Source: Oscillospiraceae bacterium (GTDB lineage Bacteria > Bacillota > Clostridia > Oscillospirales > Oscillospiraceae). Taken from it: a DNA stretch of 64,000 bases. The notes under the pieces are model-generated. The model was not told where the DNA came from. It saw nothing but the letters and a program-made list of their open reading frames with translations, and ran no database searches. Shown here one piece after another: positions 23,611 through 56,679 of this stretch. Position 1 is the stretch's first letter; the number at the start of each line of letters is the position of its first letter. Where the stretch lies: assembly GCA_009787625.1 (NCBI GenBank), contig WQSX01000001.1, positions 186,001 to 250,000 of the forward strand, read 5' to 3'. The position numbers were made by a program, and so were the translations under genes.

Positions 23611-23688
23611 GAGGTGTGTAAAATATTTTTTTCGACGGCCGGCGTGTCGTAGCCCCCGTTCCGCCGAAAAAAATATTTCACACACCTC
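23611..23688. repeat. Family B hairpin, copy 1
   Basis: Arms at 23611-23634 and 23665-23688 pair over 23 of 24 positions (GAGGTGTGTAAAATATTTTT on the left). The 30-base loop 23635-23664 is identical, in reverse complement, to the loop of the copy at 44627-44714. The right arm overlaps the stop codon of the gene at 23687-25564. No T-run follows outside the stem, so it is not a normal terminator. Confidence 0.85.
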
Positions 23689-34726: not shown

Positions 34727-34823
34727 AGCAGGTGAAATGCTGTTTGCTCCGGTTTTTGCGAGAACAGCGGTGTAGATCCCGATGGCTCGCAAAAACCGGA
34801 GCAAACAGCATTTCACCTGCGGG
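34727..34823. repeat. Family A hairpin, copy 1
   Basis: A perfect 35-bp inverted repeat: arms 34728-34762 and 34786-34820, loop 34763-34785 (23 bases, AACAGCGGTG...CCCGATGG). It starts five bases after the stop codon at 34825 and lies between the two tandem LTA-synthase-like genes. Conserved ends are AGCAG on the left and CTGCGGG on the right, as in other copies. Confidence 0.92.
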
Positions 34824-39004: not shown

Positions 39005-39102
39005 AGCAGATGATGGGCAGTTTGTGGAGTCTTTTTTCGAGAACAGCGGTGTAGATCCCGATGGCTCGAAAAAAGCGGAACAAATTGTCCATTATCTGCG
39101 GG
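39005..39102. repeat. Family A hairpin, copy 2
   Basis: Imperfect arms 39006-39041 and 39065-39099 around the same 23-base loop as copy 1, in the same orientation. Inner stem TTTTTTCGAG/CTCGAAAAAA, ends AGCAG and CTGCGGG. It lies 53 bases after the LuxC-like stop codon. Confidence 0.9.
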
Positions 39103-39152: not shown

Positions 39153-40325
39153 TCAAGATATTTTTACAACACGCGTCATAGCACGTATGAGGTCGTGACC
39201 ATCCCAAGTGAGCGAAAAGTCCATTGTAGAGCCAATTGGCACAACCCTATCTATCCCGCGAGGACGACTTTCCATAACAAATCGCTCAATATCAGACCGA
39301 GCGACACCAAAGTAAGCTAAAGTCTGTAAGCGCTCACCACAAACAGGCAAGATATCGTGTAGACTATCAATATCGCATTCAAGGAAAAACCCGCTATGTG
39401 ACCGAAAATCCATGGTATCATCAGTGAGCTTTGAAATGCAAGCACGAGTGACAAATGAGTTGATTGAGTTGCCGCAGTCAGCTAAACGTGCAGATAAACC
39501 CGCAGAAGCTCTATAAAAAGCACCAAGTTTCCCGACAGACTGAACAGGAGCAAGAGAGTATTTCTCCTCAGCGAGAGCCTGCACACTCTCCCAAAAAACA
39601 GCCTTCGCCCGCTCTGTCTCACTGCCGAGCCAAAACAAAATCTTAGGAGCAGTACAAGCGTTTTGGTCGTTAAAATAAGTATCGTTGTAAAAATCTTGAG
39701 CGATTTTAGCCTTATCGGCAGATACTAAATACCCATCAGCATTGATAACAGCGGCTGAATACCTGTCGGCAAAAGTGAGCTCAATAGCCCTAGGCTTGAG
39801 AGAAGACTCTCGCAGTTCCCGGATAGTGCCGTCGCCGCCCCAAATGACCCGCACATCGCAGATTGAAGAAAACCTATCATGCAGAGACCTATCCGGTGGA
39901 TACTTCACAAAGCAGACATACGGAGCCAAGTTATTGTGCTTATCCGCGAGAAGCTCCGCCACCGCATCAGTAATAATCGAAACCTGCTCAAAATCTTTAC
40001 CCGGCAGACGGACTATATTTGCATTGCCCGAAAGAAGCCCTGCGGCAAAACTAAAAGCAAAATTCACAGGCACATTAGAAGGAGTCGAATGAAACACAAC
40101 ACCTCTACCGAGTCGAGAATCTAAATCATCATACTTAGCCTTCTCAGCGAGAAGAGCCGCCTTCCTGCACCAAAAACCAAACGTGGCGACATCAGAATAT
40201 TCTCGAACTTTAGTCAAGCTCCTTGACAAATCGGAGAAAAACTCCAAAACACCCTCATCAAATGGAGGCAAAGCAGGAACACTGCCTATATTATCTAAGT
40301 TACCGAGTACCATCATAAGTATCAC
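39153..40325 (-). CDS. LuxC-like acyl reductase
   Basis: A 390-residue member of the LuxC family, aldehyde-dehydrogenase-fold enzymes that reduce an acyl-thioester to an aldehyde with NADPH. Visible: VVFHSTPSNVPVNFAFSFAAG (cofactor region), GNANIVRLPGKDFEQ and the catalytic Cys in FNDQNACTAPKILFW. It overlaps the LuxE-like gene. The frame's GTG at 40325 has AGGGGG close by; ATG at 40316 or 40313 is possible. It ends an acyl cassette (LuxE-like, AMP-ligase, FabG-like, ACP). No luciferase genes are present, so the aldehyde is inferred to serve glycan or lipid modification, not light. Confidence 0.85.
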   Translation of the reverse strand: MILMMVLGNLDNIGSVPALPPFDEGVLEFFSDLSRSLTKVREYSDVATFGFWCRKAALLAEKAKYDDLDSRLGRGVVFHSTPSNVPVNFAFSFAAGLLSGNANIVRLPGKDFEQVSIITDAVAELLADKHNNLAPYVCFVKYPPDRSLHDRFSSICDVRVIWGGDGTIRELRESSLKPRAIELTFADRYSAAVINADGYLVSADKAKIAQDFYNDTYFNDQNACTAPKILFWLGSETERAKAVFWESVQALAEEKYSLAPVQSVGKLGAFYRASAGLSARLADCGNSINSFVTRACISKLTDDTMDFRSHSGFFLECDIDSLHDILPVCGERLQTLAYFGVARSDIERFVMESRPRGIDRVVPIGSTMDFSLTWDGHDLIRAMTRVVKIS

Positions 40326-41382
40326 TGCACCCCCTTATCTCTGCTTGTTTCAGCCGCCCGCTAATCTCGAAATATTTACCGAGCCTGCCGCAAGGGCAGT
40401 CGTCCTCACCTAAAATAACACCCTCATCCTCCGTGAGTAAAGAGTGACCGGGATAAGATTCGGGTAGAGAAGAGACAACCTGAATTATGCCGGACTCACC
40501 AATATCGCATGGCGAAAAATCAATAAACCTGCGTGTAATTACATCAGAAAAAATAGAAGCATGAAGATGCCCAAACTCGCACTCCACATAAATACACCCT
40601 GTCTGCTCGACCATTCCATAGAAGTTGTGAATCCGTGAAAGCCCGCTTAACTCACAAAGTCGCTCCTTAAATTCACCCTTTGAAACCGACTGGCTAATGA
40701 GCTTTTTCCAACCGCCGCCGTGAATCAAAATACCACGACTCAAATCGAGATTTATATTATGGCGTTTCAGCTCCAAATAAAAATGTTGCCACACCATAAA
40801 AGTAAAACCAAAGAGGAAGATATTTTTGCCACTATGTTTTTCAAGAAAAGCCTCCAGAGCAGGTATATCAAGCTCCATGTTTTCATCGAGAGCATAAATT
40901 CTATCAGTTCCAAAAATAGAAAAGCCCAAAATACCCGCACCTCTCGCCGAGAACAAATTCCTGTCCTTTAGAGTGGACGCACTGTCAATAATAATCATAG
41001 GCATACGCGAAGCTCCGGTAAAATCCGAGACAATCTTTGCAAGAGTTTTCTGTTGATTTGTGGCAGTATCCTTGTCGAGATATATCTTTGAAACAGCTTG
41101 ACCGGTTGTGCCGGAAGAAGTCATAGTTTTGACGACATCCGCCCTGTCAATACTGAGTAGCTCAAGTTCTTTAAAGAGACTAACGGGCAAAAAAGGTATG
41201 TCATAGTAACTTCTGCAATCCGAAGGGTTAAAGCCAATGCCACGCATCATTAAGGCATAGTCAGGACACTCCTGAATATGCCGCTCTGTCAGGCTTAAAA
41301 GCCGCTCTGTCAGGAGCTCTTCTTTATCCGGCTTGTCGAGACTATATGGAGTAATCGAGTAGAAATGCTCAAGAGTTTTCAT
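40300..41382 (-). CDS. LuxE-like acyl-protein synthetase
   Basis: A 360-residue member of the LuxE family (ANL-superfamily fold), which activates an acyl group as acyl-AMP and hands it to a partner reductase. FLPVSLFKELELLSI and KTMTSSGTTGQAVSKIYLD (phosphate loop) are family features, as are GFTFMVWQHFYLEL, GGGWKKL and NFYGMVEQTGCIYVEC. The ATG at 41382 overlaps the AMP-ligase stop by 14 bases. Its stop overlaps the start of the LuxC-like reductase, so the pair is expected to work together. Whether it takes a free acid or an acyl-ACP is unknown; a Gly/Cys-containing tail (GEDDCPCGRLGKYF) resembles CoA-ligase ends. Confidence 0.85.
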   Translation of the reverse strand: MKTLEHFYSITPYSLDKPDKEELLTERLLSLTERHIQECPDYALMMRGIGFNPSDCRSYYDIPFLPVSLFKELELLSIDRADVVKTMTSSGTTGQAVSKIYLDKDTATNQQKTLAKIVSDFTGASRMPMIIIDSASTLKDRNLFSARGAGILGFSIFGTDRIYALDENMELDIPALEAFLEKHSGKNIFLFGFTFMVWQHFYLELKRHNINLDLSRGILIHGGGWKKLISQSVSKGEFKERLCELSGLSRIHNFYGMVEQTGCIYVECEFGHLHASIFSDVITRRFIDFSPCDIGESGIIQVVSSLPESYPGHSLLTEDEGVILGEDDCPCGRLGKYFEISGRLKQAEIRGCSDTYDGTR

Positions 41383-42778
41383 AGTGTTCTTCCAACTTTG
41401 AATACAGCGTTTTCCCCGCTGTGTTTTTTGGTATCTCATCCACAATTTTTATAGTAAAAGCAAGCGGATGAAGTGATGTGAGACGAGTGATGTGCTGCAA
41501 AATGCTCTCTTCAAAAGCTTGGTCTGTGATAAAAATATACATCTTATCATCAACCCCTGCGCAGGCACACTCAAGATTAGGAAAAGACGATTTTATAAGA
41601 AGTTCAGTCTCATCTAGGCTAACCCTGTTTCCGAAAATCTTCAAAAACCGAGCTTTCCTGCCAACAATTGTGTAGAAACCATCTTCATCACAAGTGGCAT
41701 AGTCTCCGGTCTCAAGCCGCCCGAAACGCTCGTCGCCCTTAGCTAAATCCTCGCCGCACTCGGCGTATCCAAGTGTCACGTTATCGCCGTAGTACACAAG
41801 CTCTCCCATGGTGTTTGGGTCAAGTAATACATTTCCCGATTCATCGACAAGCTCAAACCGCCCATTCGGTATTGCGATTCCGATAGAGCCGTACTTGCCC
41901 TGCGAATTTTCAGGCGGCAGGTAGCTCATACGAGACGTAGCCTCGGCGGCACCATACATGGCAACAAAATGTTTGCCGCTATTGCCTGCATATTCGGCAA
42001 AAAATCTATGGAGCCCAGGGTCTAATTTTCCGCCGGACTGAGTCATGGTTTTAAGTGAAGGTAACTGCATTGTAGTAAAACGGAGCTTTTTTAGCATTTC
42101 GTAGGTGTAAGGAACTCCGGCAATCGAGGTAGCCTTTCGCTCTTTGAAAAAATCCCAAAACTCCTTTTGTAAAATTCCCTTAGTCGTGAGGAGTATAGCT
42201 GCACCTGAGAAAAGATGACTGTTTATAACAGAAGTCCCGTACACGTATTGCATAGGCAAAGTGGTGATAGGTCGCTCGGAGCTGTTTAGACCCAGGTATT
42301 CGCTGATATTCATTGCATTACTCATTATATTCGCATAACTCTGACGAACCAGCTTTGGACTGCCGGTGGAGCCGGAAGTTGTGGCAAGTAGGGCGAGCTT
42401 TTCGTTGAGTGGGAAAGGGTCAAGCTTCGTGTTGTAGAGCGTATATCCGAATGCGCTATAAATTTTACTAAAATTCTTAAAAGAATGCCTGTCAGGTGTC
42501 CAGATAAATGATGGGTTGTACTTACTAATCAAAGCATCAATCAGTTCCATCGGTATCTCGCTATCCAGCAAGAGAGGGACTACATCATTTGACAAAAAAG
42601 ACACATATCCAACCAGAGAACCAATAACATTTTCACAAAGAGCAAACACTAAAGTGCGTCCTCTGAGCGAAAATGACATTTGCCGAGAAGCCTCTACAAG
42701 CTCACCATAAGTGAGTTCTGTGTCCTCATATATGGCGGAAATACTATTTGGGTTGTGCTTATCTATGTTTAGAAACAT
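41369..42778 (-). CDS. AMP-binding acyl/aminoacyl ligase (ANL superfamily)
   Basis: A 469-residue ATP-dependent ligase that adenylates a carboxylic acid and probably loads it onto the neighbouring acyl carrier protein. The A3 phosphate loop is LLATTSGSTGSPKLV; MYGAAEATSRMSYLP, GRLETGDYATCDEDGFYTI and VGRKARFLKIFGNRVS follow in the ANL order, with a C-terminal lysine region KNTAGKTLYSKLEE. Start ATG 42778 shares one base with the stop of the FabG-like gene (TAATG). The acid (fatty, hydroxy or amino acid) cannot be read from the sequence; no peptidyl condensation domain is present. Confidence 0.87.
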   Translation of the reverse strand: MFLNIDKHNPNSISAIYEDTELTYGELVEASRQMSFSLRGRTLVFALCENVIGSLVGYVSFLSNDVVPLLLDSEIPMELIDALISKYNPSFIWTPDRHSFKNFSKIYSAFGYTLYNTKLDPFPLNEKLALLATTSGSTGSPKLVRQSYANIMSNAMNISEYLGLNSSERPITTLPMQYVYGTSVINSHLFSGAAILLTTKGILQKEFWDFFKERKATSIAGVPYTYEMLKKLRFTTMQLPSLKTMTQSGGKLDPGLHRFFAEYAGNSGKHFVAMYGAAEATSRMSYLPPENSQGKYGSIGIAIPNGRFELVDESGNVLLDPNTMGELVYYGDNVTLGYAECGEDLAKGDERFGRLETGDYATCDEDGFYTIVGRKARFLKIFGNRVSLDETELLIKSSFPNLECACAGVDDKMYIFITDQAFEESILQHITRLTSLHPLAFTIKIVDEIPKNTAGKTLYSKLEEHYENS

Positions 42779-43500
42779 TATAAAGTCATGCTCCCATCAA
42801 CACCGAGAACTTGTCCGGTGACATATTCCGATAAATCCGAAGCGAAAAACAAGCACGCTTTGGCAATATCATCAGGAGTTCCGAGCCTGCCCATGCCAAT
42901 CTGAGACTTACTGAGTTCAGCACTTTCAGCACTGAGAACACTGAGTAAGTCAGTGTCAATCATGCCCGGAGCAATAGCATTCACACGAACATTTGAAGGA
43001 GAAAGCTCCTTGGCTGCAGACTTCGTAAGAGCAATAACAGCACCCTTAGTAGCAGAATAAGCTAGCTGGCCACTCTGCCCGTTGACACCAACAATACTGG
43101 ACAAATTAATAATAGAACCGGACTTCTGTCTTGTCATCAAACGAGCGGCAAGCTGTACAAGCTCCAAAACCGCAAGTACATTGACATCAAACATTTTGTG
43201 GGTGGTAGCAGTGTCCGCCATACCGATAAGCGCAGTGTGCATAATACCTGCATTGTTGACAAGCGAATCAAGCCGTCCCTGCTCCTTTTTTATACGCATA
43301 ATTGCAGCCTTAGTCGCAGAAGTATCAGTGACATCAAAGTAAATAGGAAAAATATTATCGCAAGCGAAGTCGTCAAGACTACCCTCACTGACGGCATTTG
43401 CATAAACAATAGCACCATTTTCAGCAAAAAGCCGAGCGATGGCACGGCCAATTCCACGCCGAGCACCTGTAATAAGAGTTACCTTATCTTTGAGTAGCAT
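42778..43500 (-). CDS. FabG-like 3-oxoacyl reductase (classic SDR)
   Basis: A 240-residue classic short-chain dehydrogenase. TLITGARRGIGRAIARLF binds NAD(P), LVNNAGIMHTA supports the fold, and catalytic Ser-Tyr-Lys are visible in INLSSIVGVNGQSGQLAYSATKGAV; the C-terminus APGMIDTD...YVTGQVLGVDGSM is typical of FabG. It would reduce a beta-keto acyl chain on the carrier protein encoded just upstream. The ATG at 43500 is preceded by the recurrent 19-base leader. In the acyl cassette it suggests a 3-hydroxyacyl product, though some SDRs here act on sugars instead. Confidence 0.86.
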   Translation of the reverse strand: MLLKDKVTLITGARRGIGRAIARLFAENGAIVYANAVSEGSLDDFACDNIFPIYFDVTDTSATKAAIMRIKKEQGRLDSLVNNAGIMHTALIGMADTATTHKMFDVNVLAVLELVQLAARLMTRQKSGSIINLSSIVGVNGQSGQLAYSATKGAVIALTKSAAKELSPSNVRVNAIAPGMIDTDLLSVLSAESAELSKSQIGMGRLGTPDDIAKACLFFASDLSEYVTGQVLGVDGSMTL

Positions 43501-43519
43501 AAAAATGACAACTCCTTTC
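43501..43519 (-). promoter_or_regulatory. Recurrent 19-nt start leader (FabG-like gene)
   Basis: Reads GAAAGGAGTTGTCATTTTT directly before the ATG on the minus strand. It is one of six leaders with the same length and layout (Shine-Dalgarno, NTGGTCAT, four bases, ATG). Confidence 0.7.
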
Positions 43520-43538
43520 AAGCATTTTCAGTTATGAA

Positions 43539-43775
43539 TTAAATTTCAACATCGTATTTACGCAAGATTTCCTTGCCCTTTTCATATGAGGACAAAACAA
43601 TGATGTCCTCAGTGTCCATCATAATATCAAAAGCATCCTCAAGCTCTGCAATCAAAGACATATGTCCAACAGAATCCCACTCAGGGATAGACTGATATTC
43701 AAGTTTTTCACCAAGCTGTGCCTCAGACAGCTTAAAAGCAGTAAAAAACGCTCCGTTGTATTTTTCTAAGTTCAT
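43539..43775 (-). CDS. Acyl carrier protein
   Basis: A 78-residue acidic acyl carrier protein. The phosphopantetheine serine lies in PEWDSVGHMSLI, with the usual helix II acidic stretch AELEDAFDIMMDTEDII. It would carry the acyl group made by the AMP-ligase while it is reduced by FabG-like and LuxE/LuxC-like enzymes or transferred by the GNAT protein. It lies between the GNAT and FabG-like genes; a dedicated carrier protein here argues for a specialised acyl chain, separate from general fatty acid synthesis. ATG at 43775. Confidence 0.88.
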   Translation of the reverse strand: MNLEKYNGAFFTAFKLSEAQLGEKLEYQSIPEWDSVGHMSLIAELEDAFDIMMDTEDIIVLSSYEKGKEILRKYDVEI

Positions 43776-43813
43776 TTTAAAACGCTCCTCGTATTATATT
43801 TTTACTAGATTGC

Positions 43814-43835
43814 GGGCGACCGGGGACGGTCGCCC
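43814..43835. repeat. GC-rich hairpin after the GNAT gene
   Basis: Arms GGGCGACC (43814-43821) and GGTCGCCC (43828-43835) with loop GGGGAC, between the GNAT stop and the ACP gene. No U-run follows directly. It may belong to a dispersed palindrome family but no second copy is seen here. Confidence 0.55.
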
Positions 43836-43863
43836 CTACGTGGGTTAGTGCAAACAATAACCC

Positions 43864-44595
43864 CTAGGTGGTGCGGTGCCACACATAGATGTAATCGATG
43901 CCGATAATCTGGAAACCTGCTGCAACTTGAGATTTCAGGGAAGGCAAATTATTTGCAGACATGCCCCCAATGAGCTTTTTTGCCCCGGACTCAGACGAAT
44001 GACGAATAATCGTGTTGATAAGCGCCATTCCAAGACCTGCATTTTCATACTTCTTATAGATACCAATATTATTTACAACATTGAAGTTATCTGCATTAAT
44101 AATGCTGGTAAAATAACCAAAAATATCATCCTTGAGAGAACACTTAAAAACCTTACCGCCGCGCTCCAGCAAATCACCAATCCACCCAACATATCGATTA
44201 GCCGCCAACTCAGGAGAAAAAGCAGGGTCAAGCGAAATTCGATCTGTGAAAAAAATCCCTCCACGAATCTCACCCCAAAGCTCTTCAAGCTCGTTTTCAT
44301 TCATCTCAGCATACGTTACACTATCAGAAATCCTCTTGGCGACGGAATTGAGCGAAGAACCAATATTCTTATGGTCATGCTCAACATGTAAAATAGTCTC
44401 AATAAAGCGAAACCCCATATCCTCAAGCTTAAACATAAGCGGAACCAGTCCCGCAGGAACACGCGCAACAGCATAATCACAATCCAAATCGGAAAGACAA
44501 TCCAAGTCAGAAGGAGTGTCGCCTATTTCAAGATTTATTTCTTGAGAAACAACGCCAAGATTACGCTTCTCCCAAGGTGCATCAAAGATTTTCAT
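43864..44595 (-). CDS. GNAT-family N-acyltransferase
   Basis: A 243-residue GNAT enzyme, probably N-acylating an amino sugar nucleotide, as in WecD-type proteins. The acyl-CoA binding loop is GIYKKYENAGLGMALINTII and the C-terminal part NNLPSLKSQVAAGFQIIGIDYIY is typical. The N-terminal half (residues 1-100) has the two-domain look of WecD relatives. The ATG at 44595 with GGAGGA is used. Directly followed by the acyl carrier protein gene, so the donor could be acyl-ACP as well as acyl-CoA; that is inference. The upstream gene encodes a second, hexapeptide-type acetyltransferase. Confidence 0.83.
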   Translation of the reverse strand: MKIFDAPWEKRNLGVVSQEINLEIGDTPSDLDCLSDLDCDYAVARVPAGLVPLMFKLEDMGFRFIETILHVEHDHKNIGSSLNSVAKRISDSVTYAEMNENELEELWGEIRGGIFFTDRISLDPAFSPELAANRYVGWIGDLLERGGKVFKCSLKDDIFGYFTSIINADNFNVVNNIGIYKKYENAGLGMALINTIIRHSSESGAKKLIGGMSANNLPSLKSQVAAGFQIIGIDYIYVWHRTT

Positions 44596-44626
44596 AAAAG
44601 ATATTTTCCTCCACACGACGCACAGC

Positions 44627-44714
44627 GAGCGGGACGGTGTGTGAAATATTTTTTGGCGGAACGGGGGCTACGACACGCCGGCCGTCAAAAAATATTTCAC
44701 ATACCGTCCCGCTC
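44627..44714. repeat. Family B hairpin, copy 2
   Basis: Arms 44627-44655 and 44686-44714 pair over 28 of 29 positions (GAGCGGGACGGT...). The 30-base loop 44656-44685 is identical to the reverse complement of the loop at 23635-23664, 21 kb away. It lies 48 bases past the stop of the hexapeptide acetyltransferase. Confidence 0.88.
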
Positions 44715-44762: not shown

Positions 44763-45284
44763 TCAAATATCGCAATCAGAGCAGACAGTTGTTTCATCTG
44801 CGACCCGAGCACCGCATCGGCAAACATTCCCAATTCTACGTGCAGGGTTCCCAACGACAAGCGTATGAGCAGGTACATCACGGGTGACAACAGCACCGGC
44901 ACCAACCATGGCGAACTCCCCAATAGTGACACCGCAGACAATGGTGGCGTTAGCCCCAATGGAAGCTCCGCGCCGAACAAGAGTAGGAGTGATCTCCCAG
45001 TTTGGACTCATAGCCCGAGGGTTCTTATCGTTAGTAAAAGTCATGGAAGGCCCTAGAAACACATCATCCTCAATAGTGACCCCATTATAGACATTGACAT
45101 TATTTTGAATCTTGACATTGTCGCCGATTATAACACCGGTATCAATATAAACATTCTTGCTGACAATGCAGTTTTCTCCAAGAGTGGCATTTTCACGCAC
45201 CTGCGCAAGATTCCAAATTTTAGAGCCCGCACCAATTGAAGCATCAGAGCTGACATCAGCAGTAGCATGAATAAACACAGACAT
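44763..45284 (-). CDS. WlbB/WbpD-like sugar N-acetyltransferase
   Basis: A 173-residue left-handed beta-helix enzyme. [33 protein letters not shown] and [18 protein letters not shown] are close to the WlbB/WbpD family, which acetylates the 3-amino group of UDP-2-acetamido-3-amino-2,3-dideoxyglucuronate. The family's Cys-rich tail is present as VCRCGARV...CSDC, a likely zinc knuckle. The DegT aminotransferase (45313) and Gfo/Idh oxidoreductase (46668) just upstream complete a WlbA/WlbC/WlbB-type set. Related enzymes act on dTDP-3-amino sugars, so the exact substrate is open. The recurrent leader precedes the ATG at 45284. Confidence 0.87.
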
Positions 45285-45312: not shown

Positions 45313-46494
45313 CTACGCAAACTCGCGTATACATTGTACCACATACTCAGCCTCTTCGGCGTCTAGCTCAGGGAAGATAGGGAGACAGACAGACCTCTTA
45401 GCAAGTCCCTCGGCAACAGGCAAATCGCCCTCCTTGTAACCAAGGTTGATAAAAGCCTTTTGGAGATGCAGGGGCACAGGATAAAAAGCTCCGGTGCCAA
45501 CACCTTTTTCACCTAAAAAAGCCCCAAGTCCCTCTTTGTCCTCAGTTAAAACAGCATATTGATGAAAACAACTCTTACCATTTTTAGGAGCCACAGGAGT
45601 CCGAACAACATCACAAAGTCCTTTTTCATAAATGGAAGCAATATCACTGCGCTTTTTATTATACTCGTCGAGATGCTTTAGCTTTATGCTCAAAATCGCA
45701 GCTTGCATAGCGTCAAGCCGTGAGTTGTAACCAACAATGTAGTTGTAGTATTTGTAAGGGTTGTAGAGAGAATCTGTGACAGAATCCATGGCAAACTCAT
45801 CTTTTATACCATACAAAATCTCTTGAGCCATCGCACCGTTCTTTGCCATACCATGTTCACGCAAAGCCCTTAGCACAATAGCCAAATCATCGTCATCGGT
45901 AGTGACCATACCCGCATCACCGAAAGCACCTAGGTTTTTGGTCGGGTAGAACGAAAAAGTGACGATATTATCCGAAGCGCCTATTTTACGCCCATTATAC
46001 TCACAACCAATAGCCTGCGCCGCATCTTCAACAACCTTTAAATTATGTTTGCGTGCAATATCGTTTATAGCCTCCATATCGCAAGACCACCCAAAAATGT
46101 GCACAGGCATAATAGCTTTGGTCTTAGGAGTTATTGCAGCCTCAATTTTACTTGGGTCAATATTAAAATCACTCTCATTCACATCGACAAAAACAGGAAC
46201 AGCACCGACAGCGGCAATAGCCTCAGCCGTCGCATAAAAAGTAAACGGAGTTGTAATAACCTCGTCACCGACGCCGACATCAAAAGCACGAAGAGCAATC
46301 ATAAGAGCATCTGTGCCGTTTGCACACGAGATAACATGTTTTACACCTAGATATTCACGCATTTCAGCTTCAAAAGTCTCGACATACTTACCACCAATAT
46401 AAGCGCCGCTCCGCGCCACCTCGATAATTTTAGGTTCAATATCAACCTTAATCTGCTCATATTGTCGTTTCAAATCCAAAAAAGGTACCTTCAT
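45313..46494 (-). CDS. DegT/DnrJ/EryC1/StrS aminotransferase (WlbC/WbpE-like)
   Basis: A 393-residue PLP-dependent sugar aminotransferase. KVPFLDLKRQYEQIK at the N-terminus, VISCANGTDALMIALRA, MPVHIFGWSCDMEAIN, EDAAQAIG and the PLP lysine in FSFYPTKNLGAFGDAG match the WlbC/WbpE group, which amidates C3 of an oxidised UDP-sugar. The start is ATG 46494 behind the recurrent leader; an ATG at 46515 in the same frame has no good ribosome site. It lies between the Gfo/Idh oxidoreductase that would supply its keto substrate and the acetyltransferase that would use its product. Confidence 0.88.
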   Translation of the reverse strand: MKVPFLDLKRQYEQIKVDIEPKIIEVARSGAYIGGKYVETFEAEMREYLGVKHVISCANGTDALMIALRAFDVGVGDEVITTPFTFYATAEAIAAVGAVPVFVDVNESDFNIDPSKIEAAITPKTKAIMPVHIFGWSCDMEAINDIARKHNLKVVEDAAQAIGCEYNGRKIGASDNIVTFSFYPTKNLGAFGDAGMVTTDDDDLAIVLRALREHGMAKNGAMAQEILYGIKDEFAMDSVTDSLYNPYKYYNYIVGYNSRLDAMQAAILSIKLKHLDEYNKKRSDIASIYEKGLCDVVRTPVAPKNGKSCFHQYAVLTEDKEGLGAFLGEKGVGTGAFYPVPLHLQKAFINLGYKEGDLPVAEGLAKRSVCLPIFPELDAEEAEYVVQCIREFA

Positions 46495-46513
46495 TATAAT
46501 GACCACATCTTTC
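46495..46513 (-). promoter_or_regulatory. Recurrent 19-nt start leader (aminotransferase)
   Basis: Reads GAAAGATGTGGTCATTATA before the ATG. The Shine-Dalgarno part is weaker than in the other copies (GAAAGAT). Confidence 0.6.
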
Positions 46514-46557
46514 ATAAAATTCTAAGTTATAACTTGTTTCCGTTTTTGTACAGACTA

Positions 46558-46654
46558 GGCTGAAAAGGGATGGTTTGTGGAGTCTTTTTTCGAGAACAGC
46601 GGTGTAGATCCCGATGGCTCGAAAAAAAGCGGAACAAATTATCTGTTTTCAGCC
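46558..46654. repeat. Family A hairpin, copy 3
   Basis: Arms 46558-46594 and 46618-46654 around the conserved 23-base loop, same orientation as copies 1 and 2. Inner stem as in copy 2, but outer ends are GGCTGAAAA/TTTTCAGCC instead of the GCAG/CTGC type. It begins 13 bases after the Gfo/Idh stop codon. Confidence 0.9.
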
Positions 46655-46667
46655 GACCACCGAAGCA

Positions 46668-47654
46668 TCAGAACCCACGCATGCTCTCATGCGCCTTATC
46701 TAAGATTTTCATGACCTTAACACTCTGTTCGCCGTTTGAAATAGACTGAGTGCCGGACTTTACACAGTCGGCAAAATGCTCAATGCTGTTTAAAAGCGCA
46801 TCTTCTTGCGGAATGTAGGGGGATAAAATATCGCCCGTGCGAGCCTTAAATTCGTACAGCCCATACTCGTCATGCTCATCACGCTTTACAATGCCGCAGT
46901 CAAAAATCGATAGCTTATCCATGCCGCGCATATCATCGAAAATGACCATTTTCTTAGTACCGCATACCAGCGTAGTCCGCTCTTTTACGGGGGAAATCCA
47001 ACTGGACTTTATATGGGCAATGAATCCGTCATATTTCATCGTAAGAAATGTGAGCGTCTCCTGCTCACCATAGAGCTTTTCACCGACAGCATGAACAGAG
47101 AGAGGGATTTTACCATCCGTCAAGTAATCAACAACAGCAATGTCGTGTACTGCAAGATCCATCATGGCAGTGACATCCATGCGCACAGGACCGAGATTTG
47201 CACGAGACACCTCAATGCTGGTGATATCTCCAAGCTCACCTGACTGAACCATCTTTTTAATGTAACGAATAATCGGGTGGAAAATCATGATATGGTCGCA
47301 GTGCAAAATGAGATTTTTTTCTCTAGCCATATCTGTGAGAATTTGAGCACGCTCGGCATTGGTGGCAATGGGTTTTTCTATAAACAAATGCTTGCCCGCA
47401 CTTAAAATATCCTTTGCAATCTCAAAACTGGGCTCAGTTTGCACGGCAAGAACAAAAGCATCGACATCAGGATTATCTATGAAAGATTTATAGCTTTTCT
47501 CATAGCGAACATTGTCGCCATACAGAGCCTTTGCTCTGGCTAAATTCTCAGGGTTCATATCGCAAACAGCAAAGAGACCTACTTTCTTAGACCTCGCGAG
47601 ATTCTTAGCCACATTGGCACCCCAGTAGCCATAACCTACGTGTACAACATTCAT
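46668..47654 (-). CDS. Gfo/Idh/MocA oxidoreductase (WlbA-like)
   Basis: A 328-residue NAD(P)-dependent sugar oxidoreductase. NVVHVGYGYWGANVAKNLAR is the dinucleotide site, AGKHLFIEKPIATNAERA holds the family EKP motif, and RANLGPVRMDVTAMMDLAVHD contains the catalytic Asp/His region. By comparison with WlbA/WbpB it would oxidise C3 of a UDP-sugar, feeding the aminotransferase at 45313. The 6-dehydrogenase (WbpA-type) that usually precedes it is not in the window, so the substrate may be made elsewhere or differ. Start ATG 47654 with GGAGG upstream. Confidence 0.87.
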   Translation of the reverse strand: MNVVHVGYGYWGANVAKNLARSKKVGLFAVCDMNPENLARAKALYGDNVRYEKSYKSFIDNPDVDAFVLAVQTEPSFEIAKDILSAGKHLFIEKPIATNAERAQILTDMAREKNLILHCDHIMIFHPIIRYIKKMVQSGELGDITSIEVSRANLGPVRMDVTAMMDLAVHDIAVVDYLTDGKIPLSVHAVGEKLYGEQETLTFLTMKYDGFIAHIKSSWISPVKERTTLVCGTKKMVIFDDMRGMDKLSIFDCGIVKRDEHDEYGLYEFKARTGDILSPYIPQEDALLNSIEHFADCVKSGTQSISNGEQSVKVMKILDKAHESMRGF

Positions 47655-47669
47655 ATCCTTTTCCTCCAA

Positions 47670-48644
47670 TTATTCTGAGTATCGTCCCTCATACCAATTA
47701 AGGGTGGACTTGAGTCCCTCTTCAAATGAGACCTCGGATGTAAAGCCTAAAATCTCTTTGGCGAGTTCGGAAGCCGCACAGAGCCGCTTGACATCGGCGG
47801 GTCGTGCAGGCTGTTTATCAATTTTACCACGATAACCATAGTGTTTGCAAATCCCGCCGATTAAGTCATTTATGGGAAGCTCAATACCGGTGCCGAGGTT
47901 TATGACCTTACGGCGGCTCTGCTCCTTTTCATACGCAAGAAGTAGTCCGCGAACAGTGTCGCTCACATAAATAAAATCACGTGTTTGCAGACCGTCGCCC
48001 TCAATAATGGGCATTTCCCTGTTTTGTAAGCGTCTCGCGGTGGCAGGGATAATAGCCGCCAAATTACCCGAAATGTTCTGTCGAGGACCATAGTTGTTAA
48101 AGGGGCGAATTATGGAGATATCGAGCGGCTCCATATTGTAAAATGACTGAATCATTAAATCAGCCGCAGCCTTACCCGCCGCATACGGAGTGGTTGGGTT
48201 TAGCGGGTGTCCCTCATCCATTGGTGAATAGAGAGCAGTGCCATATGCTTCAGAAGAACTGACATGTATAAGGGTTTCGTACATGTTTTCTTTTAGCAAT
48301 CTGAGCATTGTATCGGCAAGGTTGACGTTGACCATATATGCGGTGTATGGGTTAAAAAACGAGTAGTTCAGTGCGATTGTGGCAAGATTAAAAATGACAT
48401 CTATTTTCTCTGTCTTGATTATCGCACTCATTGTGCCCCAGTCGCTTGCGTCATCACGATAGAGTTTTATGCGGCCTTTTGCCAAAGCGAGATTTTCCTC
48501 TTTACCCAAAAAGAAGTTGTCCACAACAACGACATGCCTAACGCCTTCACTTACAAGGCTGTCAACAAGATGGCTGCCAATAAAACCCGCTCCACCCGTA
48601 ACTAAAACTCGTTTATTTCGTATATTCTTCAAACCGCTATTCAT
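47670..48644 (-). CDS. NAD-dependent epimerase/dehydratase (extended SDR)
   Basis: A 324-residue extended SDR acting on a nucleotide sugar. VLVTGGAGFIGSHLVDSL, FNLATIALNYSFFNPYTAYM, catalytic VSSSEAYG and YAAGKAAAD, then IIRPFNNYGPRQNISG and RDFIYVSDTVRGLLL. The Ser-Ser-Ser-Glu active site fits a 4,6-dehydratase or decarboxylase-like group, so a 4-keto-sugar for the DegT enzyme at 48774 is a plausible product. The ATG at 48644 lies directly after GAAAGGA; the TTG four codons later has better spacing, so the start is uncertain. The stop is 15 bases before the Gfo/Idh start. Confidence 0.83.
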   Translation of the reverse strand: MNSGLKNIRNKRVLVTGGAGFIGSHLVDSLVSEGVRHVVVVDNFFLGKEENLALAKGRIKLYRDDASDWGTMSAIIKTEKIDVIFNLATIALNYSFFNPYTAYMVNVNLADTMLRLLKENMYETLIHVSSSEAYGTALYSPMDEGHPLNPTTPYAAGKAAADLMIQSFYNMEPLDISIIRPFNNYGPRQNISGNLAAIIPATARRLQNREMPIIEGDGLQTRDFIYVSDTVRGLLLAYEKEQSRRKVINLGTGIELPINDLIGGICKHYGYRGKIDKQPARPADVKRLCAASELAKEILGFTSEVSFEEGLKSTLNWYEGRYSE

Positions 48645-48675
48645 TCCTTTCAGAAACTGTTCAAACTGCATCGTT

Positions 48676-48775
48676 CCCGCAGATAATATGTAATTTGCTA
48701 CGCTTTTTTGCGAGCCATCGGGATCTACACCGCTGTTCTCGCAAAAAAGACTACGCAAACAACATATTATCTGCT
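48676..48775. repeat. Family A hairpin, copy 4 (inverted)
   Basis: Arms 48679-48714 and 48738-48774 with the conserved loop in the opposite orientation to copies 1-3. The right arm touches the stop codon of the DegT gene (48774). Flanks keep the CTGCGGG (as CCCGCAG) and AGCAG (as CTGCT) ends. Confidence 0.9.
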
Positions 48776-49997
48776 AGTTTTTGCACAGAACTAAAACCTC
48801 TTTTAACTGCAGAGTAACATAATCTTGCTCCGCTTCTGTCATTTGCACATAGAGCGGCAATGTCAGTGATAATCTGTCGCAAGCCCATGAGTTGGGGATA
48901 GCTTCGGGCTTTAATCCATAGAGTTTTTTATAGCATTCAAGTGTGTGTGATGCGTGTGTGCCTTGCCTTGTGGCTACGCCCCGTTTCTCTAACTCGGAAA
49001 GTAAGTTGTCTCTTTTCTCTCCGCCTTGTTCGGTGGTCAAACCGTCAAAATTTAGCATACAGACATAACTTTGGTATGTGTGGTAATAACCGTCAGGTTC
49101 TGTTGGAGTTGTAAGAATATCTAATCCTGCGAGCAATTCATTATATCTTGCAGCTTTTTCGCGGCGAGTTTTGAGTATAAAATCAAACTTTTCCATCTGC
49201 GCCAACCCCATTGCGGCTTGAATATCGGTCATGCGGTAGTTATAGCCAATATCGTCAAATGCCGGAAGAAGAAAACCACCTGAGTTGTGTCTGGCTACTT
49301 CACTTGTAGATGCGCCGTGGCTACGCAGTCCACGCAGACGTTTGGCGAACTGCTCATTATCAGTCAAAATCATTCCGCCCTCGCCGGTGGTAATGCTTTT
49401 GCGGGGGTGAAAACTGATGCACGATGGATTGCCGAAACTTCCCTGGTTTTTCCCGGAAGCCTTTGCGCCCAAGGCACAGGCAGAATCTTCTATAATGAGT
49501 AACCCATATTCATCGGCAATCTCAGTCAGCGCAGGTATATCGGCACAGAGTCCAAATTGATGCACAGCCAAGATGGCGGTCAGAGTCGTGCCGTCTGTTT
49601 TGTGAACGAGACTATCACCTCGCTGTGAATAATTCATCTCGATAAACTGCTTTACAGAATTAGGGTCAATGCAAAAAGTTTCCCTAAAAATGTCAACAAA
49701 GCGTGGATTCGCGCCTGTGTGGGCAATTGAATTCGCACTTGCCACAAATGTAAATGATGGAACAATCACATCCTGTCCGGAACTGATTCCAAGGGCAAAC
49801 AATGTGAGGTGCAGTGCAGTTGTACAAGATGTTGTGGCGATGCCGTGAGCTATGCCCTCATGTTTTGCAACAGCACTTTCAAATTCAGCGACCTTGGGAC
49901 CCTGCGCAACCCAACCACTTGCCACAACCTTAGCCATCTCCTCAGCTTCGCGGTGGTCGGTGTATGGAATTATAACAGGAATATTCATTTCACTCAC
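48774..49997 (-). CDS. DegT/DnrJ/EryC1/StrS aminotransferase
   Basis: A 407-residue PLP-dependent sugar aminotransferase. GIATTSCTTALHLTLFALG, AVHQFGLCADIPALTEI, IEDSACALGAKASG and the PLP lysine in SFHPRKSITTGEGG are typical; GYNYRMTDIQAAMG and AWACDRLSLTLPLYVQMTEAEQDYV (in part) close the domain. The GTG at 49997 has AAAGGAG eight bases upstream and overlaps the GT2 stop as GTGA; the ATG at 49988 has poorer spacing. It is unlike the WlbC-type enzyme at 45313 and probably makes a 4-amino sugar with the SDR that follows. Substrate unproven. Confidence 0.87.
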   Translation of the reverse strand: MSEMNIPVIIPYTDHREAEEMAKVVASGWVAQGPKVAEFESAVAKHEGIAHGIATTSCTTALHLTLFALGISSGQDVIVPSFTFVASANSIAHTGANPRFVDIFRETFCIDPNSVKQFIEMNYSQRGDSLVHKTDGTTLTAILAVHQFGLCADIPALTEIADEYGLLIIEDSACALGAKASGKNQGSFGNPSCISFHPRKSITTGEGGMILTDNEQFAKRLRGLRSHGASTSEVARHNSGGFLLPAFDDIGYNYRMTDIQAAMGLAQMEKFDFILKTRREKAARYNELLAGLDILTTPTEPDGYYHTYQSYVCMLNFDGLTTEQGGEKRDNLLSELEKRGVATRQGTHASHTLECYKKLYGLKPEAIPNSWACDRLSLTLPLYVQMTEAEQDYVTLQLKEVLVLCKN

Positions 49998-50938
49998 GCC
50001 GTATCTCCTTTAGGAAGTTCTTCGACAGTATCAATGATAAAAACAGGGCGGTTACGCGATGCATCCAGAGTACGCCAAATATACTCGGCAACAACACTGA
50101 GAGAAAAGTTCGTAAGTCCAAATCCAACCAACAGAACACTGACAAGCGTGGGGAAACCTGCGTCAAAATCAACAAACCCCGTGAGCCGAGCGATCACAAT
50201 CCAAAGCGCATATATTACCCCGGCAAGAAAGAGTAAAATACCCATCAAACTTATAACCCTGATAGGCGTGTAAGAAAAGGCGACAAATGAATCTATAAAA
50301 AGCTTGACACGCTTGGAAAAAGTCCACTTAGATTGCCCTTTATGGCGCTGATTTAAAGAGACATCAATACTGGTGCGTTTAAAGCCAAAGCTGCAAATTT
50401 GCAAGAAAATCGATGAGTTGTTTTCAGCGTTATTGCAAATTTGCTCTTTCACTTTTTTGCTGAACAAAATATTGTTCGCACCACCTGCGGGATAATCTTT
50501 TATGGCGTATTTGCGTATGAGTGAGGTGTACAAATTAGAAAAAAGTCTCTCAAAAAAAGGAATTTGCACAGACGCTTTACGCGCCATGACAATATCGTAA
50601 CCCTCTAAAGATTTGCTAAACATCTCATCAATCATTGAAAACGGCTCCTGCAAATCCGCAGAAAAAAACATGGTGTACTTGCCGCTTGCCTGAGTGATTC
50701 CCGCTCTGATTGCTGCGTGGGAACCGAAATTCTTAGACAGGCGAATGAGTCTGACTTTAACATTTTGTGGATTCATTTTTCTGAGAATCTCCACAGAGGA
50801 GTCAGTAGAGCCATCATCGACAAAAACAGCTTCGATGGCGAAGCTTTGGGTATGGGCATATTCATCCAGTTGCGACATAAGCTCGCCCAGATTTTCTTCT
50901 TCATTTAAAAACGGAATAACTAAAGATACATCTATCAT
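49994..50938 (-). CDS. GtrB-like polyprenyl-phosphate glycosyltransferase
   Basis: A 314-residue GT2 enzyme with two C-terminal membrane helices. VSLVIPFLNEEENLGELM, VFVDDGSTDSSVEIL, FSADLQEPFSMIDEM and NQRHKGQSKWTFSKRVKLF are those of the GtrB/dolichyl-phosphate-mannose-synthase-like family. Helices follow at about residues 230-255 and 262-290. It would load a hexose onto undecaprenyl phosphate at the inner face of the membrane. The neighbouring GtrII-type membrane protein could then use that lipid-linked sugar outside. The GtrA flippase usual for such systems is not seen. ATG 50938 with GGGGAG. Confidence 0.87.
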   Translation of the reverse strand: MIDVSLVIPFLNEEENLGELMSQLDEYAHTQSFAIEAVFVDDGSTDSSVEILRKMNPQNVKVRLIRLSKNFGSHAAIRAGITQASGKYTMFFSADLQEPFSMIDEMFSKSLEGYDIVMARKASVQIPFFERLFSNLYTSLIRKYAIKDYPAGGANNILFSKKVKEQICNNAENNSSIFLQICSFGFKRTSIDVSLNQRHKGQSKWTFSKRVKLFIDSFVAFSYTPIRVISLMGILLFLAGVIYALWIVIARLTGFVDFDAGFPTLVSVLLVGFGLTNFSLSVVAEYIWRTLDASRNRPVFIIDTVEELPKGDTA

Positions 50939-50958: not shown

Positions 50959-53178
50959 CTAATCCCACGCAGACGGGCCGAGCCTTACTATGATATATTC
51001 GTCAAACTCTCTGACAAAACCGTAATGAGGCCAATTTGGCATACCTAACATTCTAAACTGGAGTTCAGCCGTATCAACATGTACAGGACGAGTTATCGGG
51101 AAATGATGTGCTTCAAAAAAGGCGTGAATCCAACTCGTGTAAAGCTCATGATATGGTGTGTCGCGTGAAACATCAAATATCGAAAGCCCTGCAAACTCCA
51201 TAGCAATCAATGGATTTGGCGCATGACCGATAAAGAGTATAGGTCTTTCCTCGCCTATTCCTATCTCTTGGACAATAGAGTGCATTATCATAACATCTCG
51301 CTGATAACGCTGATAATCCAAGTTAAAAGTATTATTCATTTCCCTTGACTGGAAGAAAACAACCCAGACAACCAATAAGATTGCTAAATATTTGAACTTA
51401 AAATTAAACCTGCCCTTTGAAATCTCTATGTTTTTTATCACCAAGTATAATAGCGACGACACAAAAGCAATTAAGAAGAAGAACGTTAAAATCATTCTGT
51501 AAGGAGGGAAAAGACTACCGATTATAAAGTGCATACTAAACGCAGACAACGCAATTGCAAGGGAGAGTAGCAGTAGCGTAGGCTTTTTCTTAGCTAGTGT
51601 AAAGATAAGCCCAATAATGATTAAAACTACAGTGGCAATCCAAATTATAGTGTCAATTTCACTACCTGCCATTGGCCTGAGAATACGTTGGTTAAAGAAC
51701 AGCAGCGTAAAACTGACAATTGACCTGATAAGCGAGAATACGGTGGTTCTGTTGTGGGTGACGAAACCATCGACATAATATAAATGCTCAATGTCAAAAA
51801 TATATTGGAAAAAGACGACACCGCCCCACCAAAACAGAAGTCCCATGCCGACAATAACCAAGAGTTTGAGCGACCGTACTACAAGCCCTGTGAATTCTTT
51901 ATCCTCTTTAGTGACAAGGTAGTGGATAAACAAAAGCGAAAAACCACTCATCAAAAATAACATGATAGTTATTTCATAAAAAGCAGTTGAATATCCTAAA
52001 ATTAATAAAGCAGGAATGGAGTATAGAAAACTCCTTTTCTCAATAAACCACTTTGCAGCGAAGTAAATACTGAGAGAAGTTAAGAGGAAAATCAACCCGA
52101 CTTCCACTGTTGCGACGGTGAAGATGAATAGATTGGCAATCCACGGGAAAGAAATTGCCGTACTTGCAAAAATTGCAGACGCCTTATCATCAAATCTTCC
52201 ACCGGAATATCTTCTTAGCAAGCCACAAATCAGCGTTATGCCTATCACCATAAAAATCAGACCGATAAAAGCACGCCAGAAAGGCAACAGCGAATATGTA
52301 TTGAAAATATTGAGGAGTGGTACATATCCCCACCGTCCGGCGGCGATTAAAACACCGTGCTCCATGAAAGTAGATTCAAAAAGAGCATCATCAATGACAA
52401 TTGTGCGGTTTGTGAGCATAAAACCGTAGCACAGAGTCACAACCGTAGTAACGCATATCCAATAGAATCGGCTATGCCTAAAAAGCCCCACGAAACCTGC
52501 GTACTCAGGGTTATTCTTGTCGGCTACCACACCACCGACAATATCGTTTACAACGTAATCATTCAAAATCATCCGTGCATGTTTGACGATATGCCGCTTG
52601 AAAAAGTAAAGATAGAGCAAGACAGAGCCCATTATTGTGAGTGCGGAGAATGTAACCCAAAACATCCAAGATAAGACGGCGTAGTTTGCAAGTGAAACCT
52701 CGTTGACAATCATAGAAACATCTCGTTGGTCGGTTAAATCCAACCTAAGGGTGGAATAGGTTGTATTTGGCAGGGAAACTAAGTTAGCGCCGTTTGTGAG
52801 TACAAATCGTACCGAATTCGCCTCAGTAAAATAATCATTTCCGTATGCAAAAAAAATCTGAGCCATTGCCCCATCAATGCTGAGTCCGCTGACATCAATG
52901 GTTATCATATCTCCCGCAAACAGTGGGTTAGTCCGCAGCACAATCCACGGGTCGGTTGATGTGGAACGAATAACACCATTTTCAAGCAGTTCAAAGTCTT
53001 TTAGTTCTCGATATAACTCATCTTGGGAAAATGTATGTGACACCCTATTGCCGGGTGTAAGTCCTGGGGTGAAAGTGCCTGTAAAAATGAAAGAAAGTAT
53101 CGAAAAAAGAGCTAATATAGCAAGAATAAGGCATATTACGAATACTATTACTTTGCCTAAGCCGGAAATCTTAATCAT
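50959..53178 (-). CDS. GtrII-type multi-spanning membrane glycosyltransferase
   Basis: A 739-residue polytopic protein. One N-terminal helix, an extracellular region (about residues 30-170), then some dozen transmembrane segments. The GtrII-like part shows TIVIDDALFESTF, a probable catalytic acidic loop after the first core helix, and GRWGYVPLLNIFNTYSLLPFW. Members of this group (with GtrB-type partners) transfer a sugar from undecaprenyl phosphate to a glycan on the outer face. The partner GT2 gene follows 20 bases downstream, supporting this role. The ATG at 53178 with AGGTGAG is chosen; a GTG two codons earlier is possible. The C-terminal extracellular tail contains RPILFIGHAPNPLIAME, function unknown. 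Confidence 0.78.
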   Translation of the reverse strand: MIKISGLGKVIVFVICLILAILALFSILSFIFTGTFTPGLTPGNRVSHTFSQDELYRELKDFELLENGVIRSTSTDPWIVLRTNPLFAGDMITIDVSGLSIDGAMAQIFFAYGNDYFTEANSVRFVLTNGANLVSLPNTTYSTLRLDLTDQRDVSMIVNEVSLANYAVLSWMFWVTFSALTIMGSVLLYLYFFKRHIVKHARMILNDYVVNDIVGGVVADKNNPEYAGFVGLFRHSRFYWICVTTVVTLCYGFMLTNRTIVIDDALFESTFMEHGVLIAAGRWGYVPLLNIFNTYSLLPFWRAFIGLIFMVIGITLICGLLRRYSGGRFDDKASAIFASTAISFPWIANLFIFTVATVEVGLIFLLTSLSIYFAAKWFIEKRSFLYSIPALLILGYSTAFYEITIMLFLMSGFSLLFIHYLVTKEDKEFTGLVVRSLKLLVIVGMGLLFWWGGVVFFQYIFDIEHLYYVDGFVTHNRTTVFSLIRSIVSFTLLFFNQRILRPMAGSEIDTIIWIATVVLIIIGLIFTLAKKKPTLLLLSLAIALSAFSMHFIIGSLFPPYRMILTFFFLIAFVSSLLYLVIKNIEISKGRFNFKFKYLAILLVVWVVFFQSREMNNTFNLDYQRYQRDVMIMHSIVQEIGIGEERPILFIGHAPNPLIAMEFAGLSIFDVSRDTPYHELYTSWIHAFFEAHHFPITRPVHVDTAELQFRMLGMPNWPHYGFVREFDEYIIVRLGPSAWD

Positions 53179-53224
53179 ACCCACTCACCTAAATATTTCA
53201 TAACGTGATTTCTAATCAGTAATT

Positions 53225-56580: not shown

Positions 56581-56679
56581 CCCGCATATGACGGGCGATT
56601 TACCCTGATTTTTCGGGAGCCACCGGGATCTACACCGCTGTTCTCCCGAAAAACCAGTGCAAACTGCCCGTCATCTGCT
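56581..56679. repeat. Family A hairpin, copy 5 (inverted)
   Basis: Imperfect arms from 56584 and to 56678 around the conserved loop, inverted like copy 4, with one loop base changed (CCACCGGGATC). Inner stem here is TTTTTCGGGAG/CTCCCGAAAAA, so both arms changed together relative to the other copies. It starts 24 bases past the stop at 56703. Confidence 0.88.

Follow-up and report, generated by a model that had tools for sequence, protein, structure and literature searches.

The 64,000-nucleotide window analysed here (positions 186,001 to 250,000 of contig WQSX01000001.1, Oscillospiraceae bacterium, GCA_009787625.1) contained six consecutive genes on the minus strand (44616-39153), encoding a GNAT acyltransferase, an acyl carrier protein (ACP), a short-chain dehydrogenase/reductase (SDR), an AMP-forming ligase, a LuxE-like synthetase and a LuxC-like reductase. 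Overall, this cassette probably serves to decorate an amino sugar of a surface glycan with a short hydroxylated acyl group that it also supplies; C4H6O3 is a tentative candidate for that group. The cassette belongs to an already known, biochemically uncharacterised kind.

Gene content and catalytic residues of the cassette

43864..44616, minus strand: GNAT N-acyltransferase with a WecD-like fold by structure prediction; likely start at ATG 44595
43539..43775, minus strand: acyl carrier protein, with Ser35 in the motif WDSVGH (all 66 aligned rows have this Ser)
42778..43521, minus strand: SDR/FabG-like reductase, proposed aldehyde-to-alcohol reductase (Pfam adh_short_C2, 2.7e-57; Tyr155 in 76 of 77 rows and Lys159 in as many)
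41369..42778, minus strand: AMP-forming acyl ligase, proposed ACP loader (Pfam AMP-binding, 6.2e-42; Lys456 in 75 of 75 rows)
40300..41445, minus strand: LuxE-like acyl-protein synthetase, acyl Cys373 (Pfam LuxE, 1.1e-48); likely start at ATG 41382
39153..40325, minus strand: LuxC-like acyl reductase, Cys224 (Pfam LuxC, 8.2e-25; Cys in 78 of 78 rows)

The six families and their order agreed with a preliminary description of this DNA, which had also called the genes mostly overlapping. As called, three of the five junctions overlapped (26, 77 and 1 bases), whereas the other two were gaps of 17 and 88 bases. With LuxE starting at ATG 41382, near the point at which the LuxE genes of two related loci (L041 and L050) begin, the 77-base overlap falls to 14.

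LuxC Cys224 and LuxE Cys373 aligned with the LuxC Cys (7xc6_A) and the LuxE acyl-Cys (7xc6_E) of the solved complex 7xc6, and the latter residue was present in 82 of 83 aligned rows, the remaining row being a gap. This LuxC cysteine had earlier been called catalytic, and the DS motif noted earlier in the ACP was kept. Neither the ACP nor the GNAT had a Pfam match at E 0.001, and their NCBIfam matches were weak and far under cut-off (ACP, 7.9e-4; GNAT as RimI, 7.7e-4). The retained DS motif points to an ACP, and the first gene is assigned as a GNAT from its predicted fold: the best fold match of the model was WecD (dTDP-fucosamine acetyltransferase; 17-18% identity), while a PDB sequence search with the GNAT alone returned weak generic matches. 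The SDR scored highest among the FabG and dehydrogenase NCBIfam models.

Conservation of the cassette in other genomes

A profile built from seven cassette LuxE proteins matched at least 595 genome-contig stretches, of which at least 523 were confirmed. Locus counts refer to the 80 best-scoring of these confirmed relatives, a biased sample, with genes labelled by BLAST clustering of open reading frame calls; the counts are affected by frameshifts, by contig ends and by merged SDR and DegT clusters, and one unlabelled locus (L137) was kept in the denominators. Going by record titles, the loci spanned eight phyla, 59 of them belonging to Clostridia, many as metagenome-assembled genomes.

LuxE and LuxC were adjacent on the same strand or fused in 70 of the 80 loci, including five with a fused protein of 774-785 residues. 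In 67 loci the ligase preceded LuxE by no more than two genes or followed it by no more than three, and in 52 the ACP lay at most four genes from the ligase; anywhere in the locus, the ligase was found in 73, the ACP in 65 and the SDR in 58. Co-occurrence across genomes, by which the preliminary description had proposed to judge the set, was evident; the genes are not scattered, and the cassette is a conserved unit. A second genome of the same genus (L042, on the same contig as L058) carried GNAT-ACP-SDR-(extra gene)-ligase-LuxE-LuxC at 62-78% identity, the extra gene being methyltransferase-like by eye; since this genome keeps the arrangement, it is not a product of chance.

The cassette appeared uncommon in the class of locus L129, as only six of 369 sampled genomes matched the LuxE profile at E 1e-15, four of them strongly. 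LuxE was also found in 43 plasmid records, and two regions (Ponticoccus and Rhizobium) were inspected. The Ponticoccus plasmid had ACP-SDR-ligase-LuxE with LuxC nearby on the opposite strand. The Rhizobium beringeri plasmid CP140837.1 (L151) carried a transketolase-type cassette together with a gene named acyl-ACP--UDP-GlcNAc O-acyltransferase; as this plasmid was typed as conjugative, the system may move.

Proposed pathway and parallels in known systems

In the pathway that we infer, from substrate, direction and step order to acceptor sugar and glycosyltransferase role, LuxE would adenylate a small dicarboxylic acid, with malate as the favoured candidate, at one of its carboxyls, hold the acyl group on Cys373 and pass it to Cys224 of LuxC, which would reduce it to a semialdehyde. 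The SDR would convert this aldehyde into a primary alcohol, the ligase would activate the remaining carboxyl and load the acyl group on Ser35 of the ACP, and the WecD-like GNAT would move it onto the amine of a 4-amino sugar in nucleotide-activated form. This sugar would come from the dehydratase and DegT aminotransferase encoded nearby. The neighbouring GT2 and GtrII-type glycosyltransferases would then place the acylated sugar on an outer glycan, the product being 2,4-dihydroxybutyryl (C4H6O3) or a close relative, as an acyl amide. A small diacid would be the simplest substrate, because reduction by LuxC consumes one carboxyl and the ligase needs another.

The preliminary description had suggested that a special acid is loaded on a dedicated carrier and then transferred to an amino sugar. 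This proposal was supported by the WecD-like fold, the adjoining amino-sugar genes, the conserved catalytic residues and the co-conservation of the set. GNAT enzymes transfer acyl groups, so the aldehyde that it had envisaged as an alternative final decoration found no support. WecD itself, the best fold match, uses acetyl-CoA.

The same diacid logic, with one carboxyl reduced and the other ligated, has been assigned to the Vibrio cholerae O1 antigen, in which 3-deoxy-L-glycero-tetronate is carried on perosamine. In the source passages, an ACP, a ligase, an alcohol dehydrogenase and an acyl protein synthase/reductase are assigned to this group; 2,4-dihydroxybutanoate is given there as the acid that RfbL activates, with coenzyme A or RfbK as its putative carrier, and RfbN appears as an acyl protein synthase/acyl-CoA reductase, listed together with an alcohol dehydrogenase that contains iron (PMC3441752, PMC9201469, PMC12208996). 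RfbK, RfbL, VC0250 and RfbN comprise the same functions as the cassette and end in an N-acyl 4-amino sugar, a likeness by described functions and not by sequences, with an iron-type alcohol dehydrogenase where the window has an SDR. Because this tetronate was already known, the earlier idea that a hydroxyacyl-modified surface sugar was undescribed does not hold, and the general reading of the preliminary description was largely right while its claim to novelty was not.

Closer parallels in gene order come from flagellin islands. Those of Aeromonas group II carry acp - 3-oxoacyl-ACP reductase - AMP synthetase - luxE - luxC (PMC7874193), five functions in the same order as in the window, where they lie on one strand, and enterobacterial islands carry the same families (PMC4875605). 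The Aeromonas cassette sits among pseudaminic acid, maf and flagellin genes, whereas that of the window is accompanied by other glycan genes and the WecD-like GNAT. For two proteobacterial loci with an Aeromonas-like layout (L169 and L170), LuxE identity to the closest labelled relative among the cassettes was 47% and 44%. A transketolase-form cassette of Dickeya zeae has also been published, and read as fatty acid synthesis (PMC7575072, PMC4522980); as described there, it shares the core and has an aminotransferase and a maltose-O-acetyltransferase-like gene, but includes a transketolase pair that the window cassette lacks.

In the passages on the group II strain Aeromonas piscicola AH-3, a linker sugar of 376.14 Da and an unidentified terminal piece of 102 Da are reported (PMC7874193), while the flagellin of Aeromonas caviae Sch3N bears plain Pse5Ac7Ac (PMC3958885). 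The source passages place no glycosyltransferase genes between the pse genes of Sch3N and do not state its island group; it presumably does not carry the cassette. Pse5Ac7Ac has a computed mass of 316.127, which rises to 376.148 when a C4H6O3 acyl takes the place of one acetyl; the mass of C4H6O3 alone is 102.032, so that a single acyl group would fit both Aeromonas masses, a match that is suggestive only. A mutant in fgi-1, outside the cassette, is described as retaining the 376 Da sugar alone, which agrees with the C4H6O3 reading and proves nothing.

The database records and papers seen give such genes names taken from bioluminescence or fatty acid synthesis, and two of the papers guess a 'liposugar'. 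The same core occurs in other bacteria, its chemistry so far read from genes. If it makes short hydroxylated acyl groups, this naming would be corrected, the two odd Aeromonas flagellin masses would gain a testable identity, and surface-glycan decorations in many anaerobes would become predictable from gene content.

Variant modules in related loci

Several enzyme families accompanied the core in a fraction of the 80 loci, each family being named from one representative: a split transketolase (34-35 loci), a thioesterase (19), FabA-like (18), NeuB-like (17) and KASIII (13) proteins, a lactate/malate dehydrogenase (12), an IlvB-like thiamine pyrophosphate (TPP) enzyme (11) and a metallo-beta-lactamase fold (9). 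Co-occurrence was tested in the 66 loci with a full core and trees were built from 57 rows including the window, the other loci lacking the genes needed. The Fisher tests ignore shared ancestry, and many pairs were tested, with uncorrected values printed at p < 0.02; the trees were quick and had some long branches.

Transketolase and IlvB-like genes never shared a full-core locus (p = 9e-4) and transketolase and NeuB-like genes did so in two (p = 0.001), whereas IlvB-like, NeuB-like and FabA-like genes co-occurred (odds ratios 10-24). Two LuxE-LuxC sets were found in five of the 80 loci, four of them with transketolase. Fifteen full-core loci had no transketolase, NeuB, IlvB-like or KASIII gene, and 14 of these had an SDR. 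The SDR type of the window occurred mostly in loci without transketolase, and a 27-row set (support 99) united it with the SDRs of L049 and of four proteobacterial loci (L150, L168, L169 and L170). This favours, and does not show, the same C4H6O3 chemistry in the window as proposed for Aeromonas.

Transketolase, IlvB-like and NeuB-like enzymes are all able to use an aldehyde acceptor. This shared ability suggests the hypothesis, drawn from gene content alone and somewhat speculative, that the window cassette represents the smallest version of a large modular system, independent of polyketide synthases, that builds acyl groups for amino sugars. LuxE-LuxC would make aldehydes from small acids; transketolase, IlvB-like TPP and NeuB-like phosphoenolpyruvate-condensing enzymes, KASIII, FabA-like and lactate dehydrogenase-like or SDR enzymes would be swapped in to extend or trim them; and the ligase with a GNAT or hexapeptide transferase would attach the products. 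Many undescribed polyhydroxyacyl sugars might then decorate surfaces and flagella, the simplest product being the C4H6O3 of V. cholerae O1 and of the 376 and 102 Da Aeromonas pieces. The Shewanella sfmABCDE genes (PMC3765264), which overlap with one variant module in their NeuB-like, TPP and SDR genes, were set aside because the five genes described in the source passages include no LuxE or LuxC.

Alternative explanations

Several observations weigh against the proposed pathway. The partner of WecD, WecE, was not found in the window genome (95% complete), where the best score was 218.6 bits against a cut-off of 375, so that the GNAT acceptor would differ from that in the loci of relatives. The acceptor amine is also uncertain because another DegT gene in the window is accompanied by a hexapeptide transferase of its own, and the best SDR scores would suit 3-oxoacyl-ACP equally well. 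Ten of the 80 loci failed the LuxE-LuxC adjacency count, five transketolase loci also fell inside the 27-row SDR set, and the distribution was patchy: among 18 other genomes of the genus, two had a LuxC-family match and only one (G005) showed the cassette. As for the Aeromonas masses, the terminal piece comes to 102.94 from rounded m/z values and to 102.05 from the stated 1491.5 Da, C4H6O3 has isomers (2,3-dihydroxybutyryl, O-methylglyceroyl), and the passages of the Aeromonas flagellin literature examined report no cassette mutant. PMC9290775 contributed no usable masses.

The uncertainty of the amine bears on an alternative that we consider unlikely, in which the same supply line serves another acceptor, namely the amine of a WbpE/QdtB-like branch or of a flagellin sugar, and not a 4-amino sugar. 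WbpE/QdtB-like and Gfo/Idh genes lie just upstream of the GNAT gene and the genome had eight flagellin-domain matches, but this branch has its own hexapeptide transferase, such GNATs occur elsewhere in loci with 4-amino (WecE) genes, and no flagellar gene was recognised by eye in the window.

In a fatty-acid system, also unlikely, the SDR would genuinely reduce 3-oxoacyl-ACP, and the glycan would receive a 3-hydroxy fatty acid or a lipid. The FabG-like character of the SDR, the FabA-like dehydratase and KASIII genes of some related loci (18 and 13 of 80), the 3-hydroxybutanamido sugar given for Pseudomonas syringae flagellin (PMC3958885) and the 'liposugar' proposed for flagellin-island cassettes (PMC7874193, PMC4875605) would all be consistent with it. 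However, no ketosynthase or dehydratase was recognised in the window cassette, which leaves a FabG without an evident substrate, LuxC and LuxE would be left without a clear role, and the 15 full-core loci devoid of KASIII and of transketolase, NeuB and IlvB-like genes, 14 of them with an SDR, argue against it.

It is improbable that the LuxC aldehyde serves as an electrophile for carbon-carbon bond formation, the window cassette being a reduced form that borrows the enzyme from elsewhere in the genome. The frequency of transketolase, IlvB-like and NeuB-like genes (34-35, 11 and 17 of 80 loci), the mutual exclusion of the first two and the duplicated LuxE-LuxC sets, mostly with transketolase, point towards such chemistry in relatives. 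The window, though, contained no gene recognised as one of these, its SDR type occurs mostly without transketolase, and two loci combine transketolase with NeuB-like genes, so that exclusion between the modules is not strict.

The cassette shares the Pfam LuxC and LuxE families and both acyl-Cys positions with luminous bacteria, but its reading as a relative or remnant of bioluminescence, with a long-chain fatty aldehyde made for light or signalling, was rejected as very improbable given NCBIfam scores far below those of luminous equivalogs (LuxC, 32.3 bits against a cut-off of 750; LuxE, 65.8 against 550), a LuxC of 390 residues compared to 477, the dedicated ACP, ligase, GNAT and amino-sugar genes, and no luciferase-family (PF00296) match in the whole genome, which extends the earlier remark that no luciferase was present.

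Glycan genes and repeats around the cassette

The window cassette is associated with amino-sugar and glycan genes, which lie upstream of it:

44763..45284, minus strand: hexapeptide transferase (best PDB match 3mqg, a lipopolysaccharide biosynthesis acetyltransferase, E 4.3e-48)
45313..46515, minus strand: DegT aminotransferase, WbpE/QdtB-like, of the 3-amino type by those relatives
46668..47669, minus strand: Gfo/Idh oxidoreductase, UDP-GlcNAc 3-dehydrogenase-like (142.6 bits against a cut-off of 450)
47670..48758, minus strand: SDR-type sugar dehydratase/epimerase, which we label LegB-like (64% identical gene in cassette locus L063)
48774..49997, minus strand: DegT aminotransferase, ArnB/perosamine-synthetase/LegC-like, proposed maker of the 4-amino group
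49994..50938, minus strand: GT2 glycosyltransferase, GtrB/ArnC-like by eye (Pfam Glycos_transf_2, 8.9e-23)
50959..53184, minus strand: GtrII-type membrane glycosyltransferase (Pfam Glucos_trans_II, 4.3e-18; 66 bits, cut-off 30)

The DegT at 48774..49997 scored under the NCBIfam cut-offs listed, so its label names related enzymes and not an exact sugar. The same GT2 cluster occurred in 19 of the 80 cassette loci besides the window, and dTDP-rhamnose-type genes, recognised by eye, followed beyond the GT2 and GtrII genes.

Elsewhere in the window, a gene fusing nucleotidyltransferase and choline kinase, with a BCCT transporter gene after it (27569-30882), resembled phosphocholine decoration of the glycan, and a protein that combines a YidC/Oxa1-type domain with a CDP-glycerol glycerophosphotransferase-like domain (36749-38647) adjoined two sulfatase-fold proteins. 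Direct repeats of 33 and 52 bases lay within a coding region (1191-1350) whose protein was methyltransferase-like by eye. Neither Rfam at the gathering threshold nor a tRNA scan matched anything in the 64-kb window, and its promoter-like (30) and terminator-like (11) elements were near chance (20.7, standard deviation 4.6, and 11.6 in shuffles) and were not used as evidence.

A hairpin-like repeat (23625-23683 and 44627-44714) had one copy directly 5' of the GNAT gene. Another, longer hairpin repeat occurred at 34753-34823, 39032-39102 (immediately 3' of LuxC), 46585-46655, 48676-48748 and 56581-56653; its 27-base tip was constant, whereas the stems differed between copies in a paired manner. 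The tip was present in 134 copies in the window genome (66 + 68, at most three mismatches) and in none of 19 other genomes searched, 12 of them from the same genus. Among the 25 of the 134 copies that were read, the arms were complementary in all (at least 9 bases, at least 85%) and the tip was unchanged in 24.

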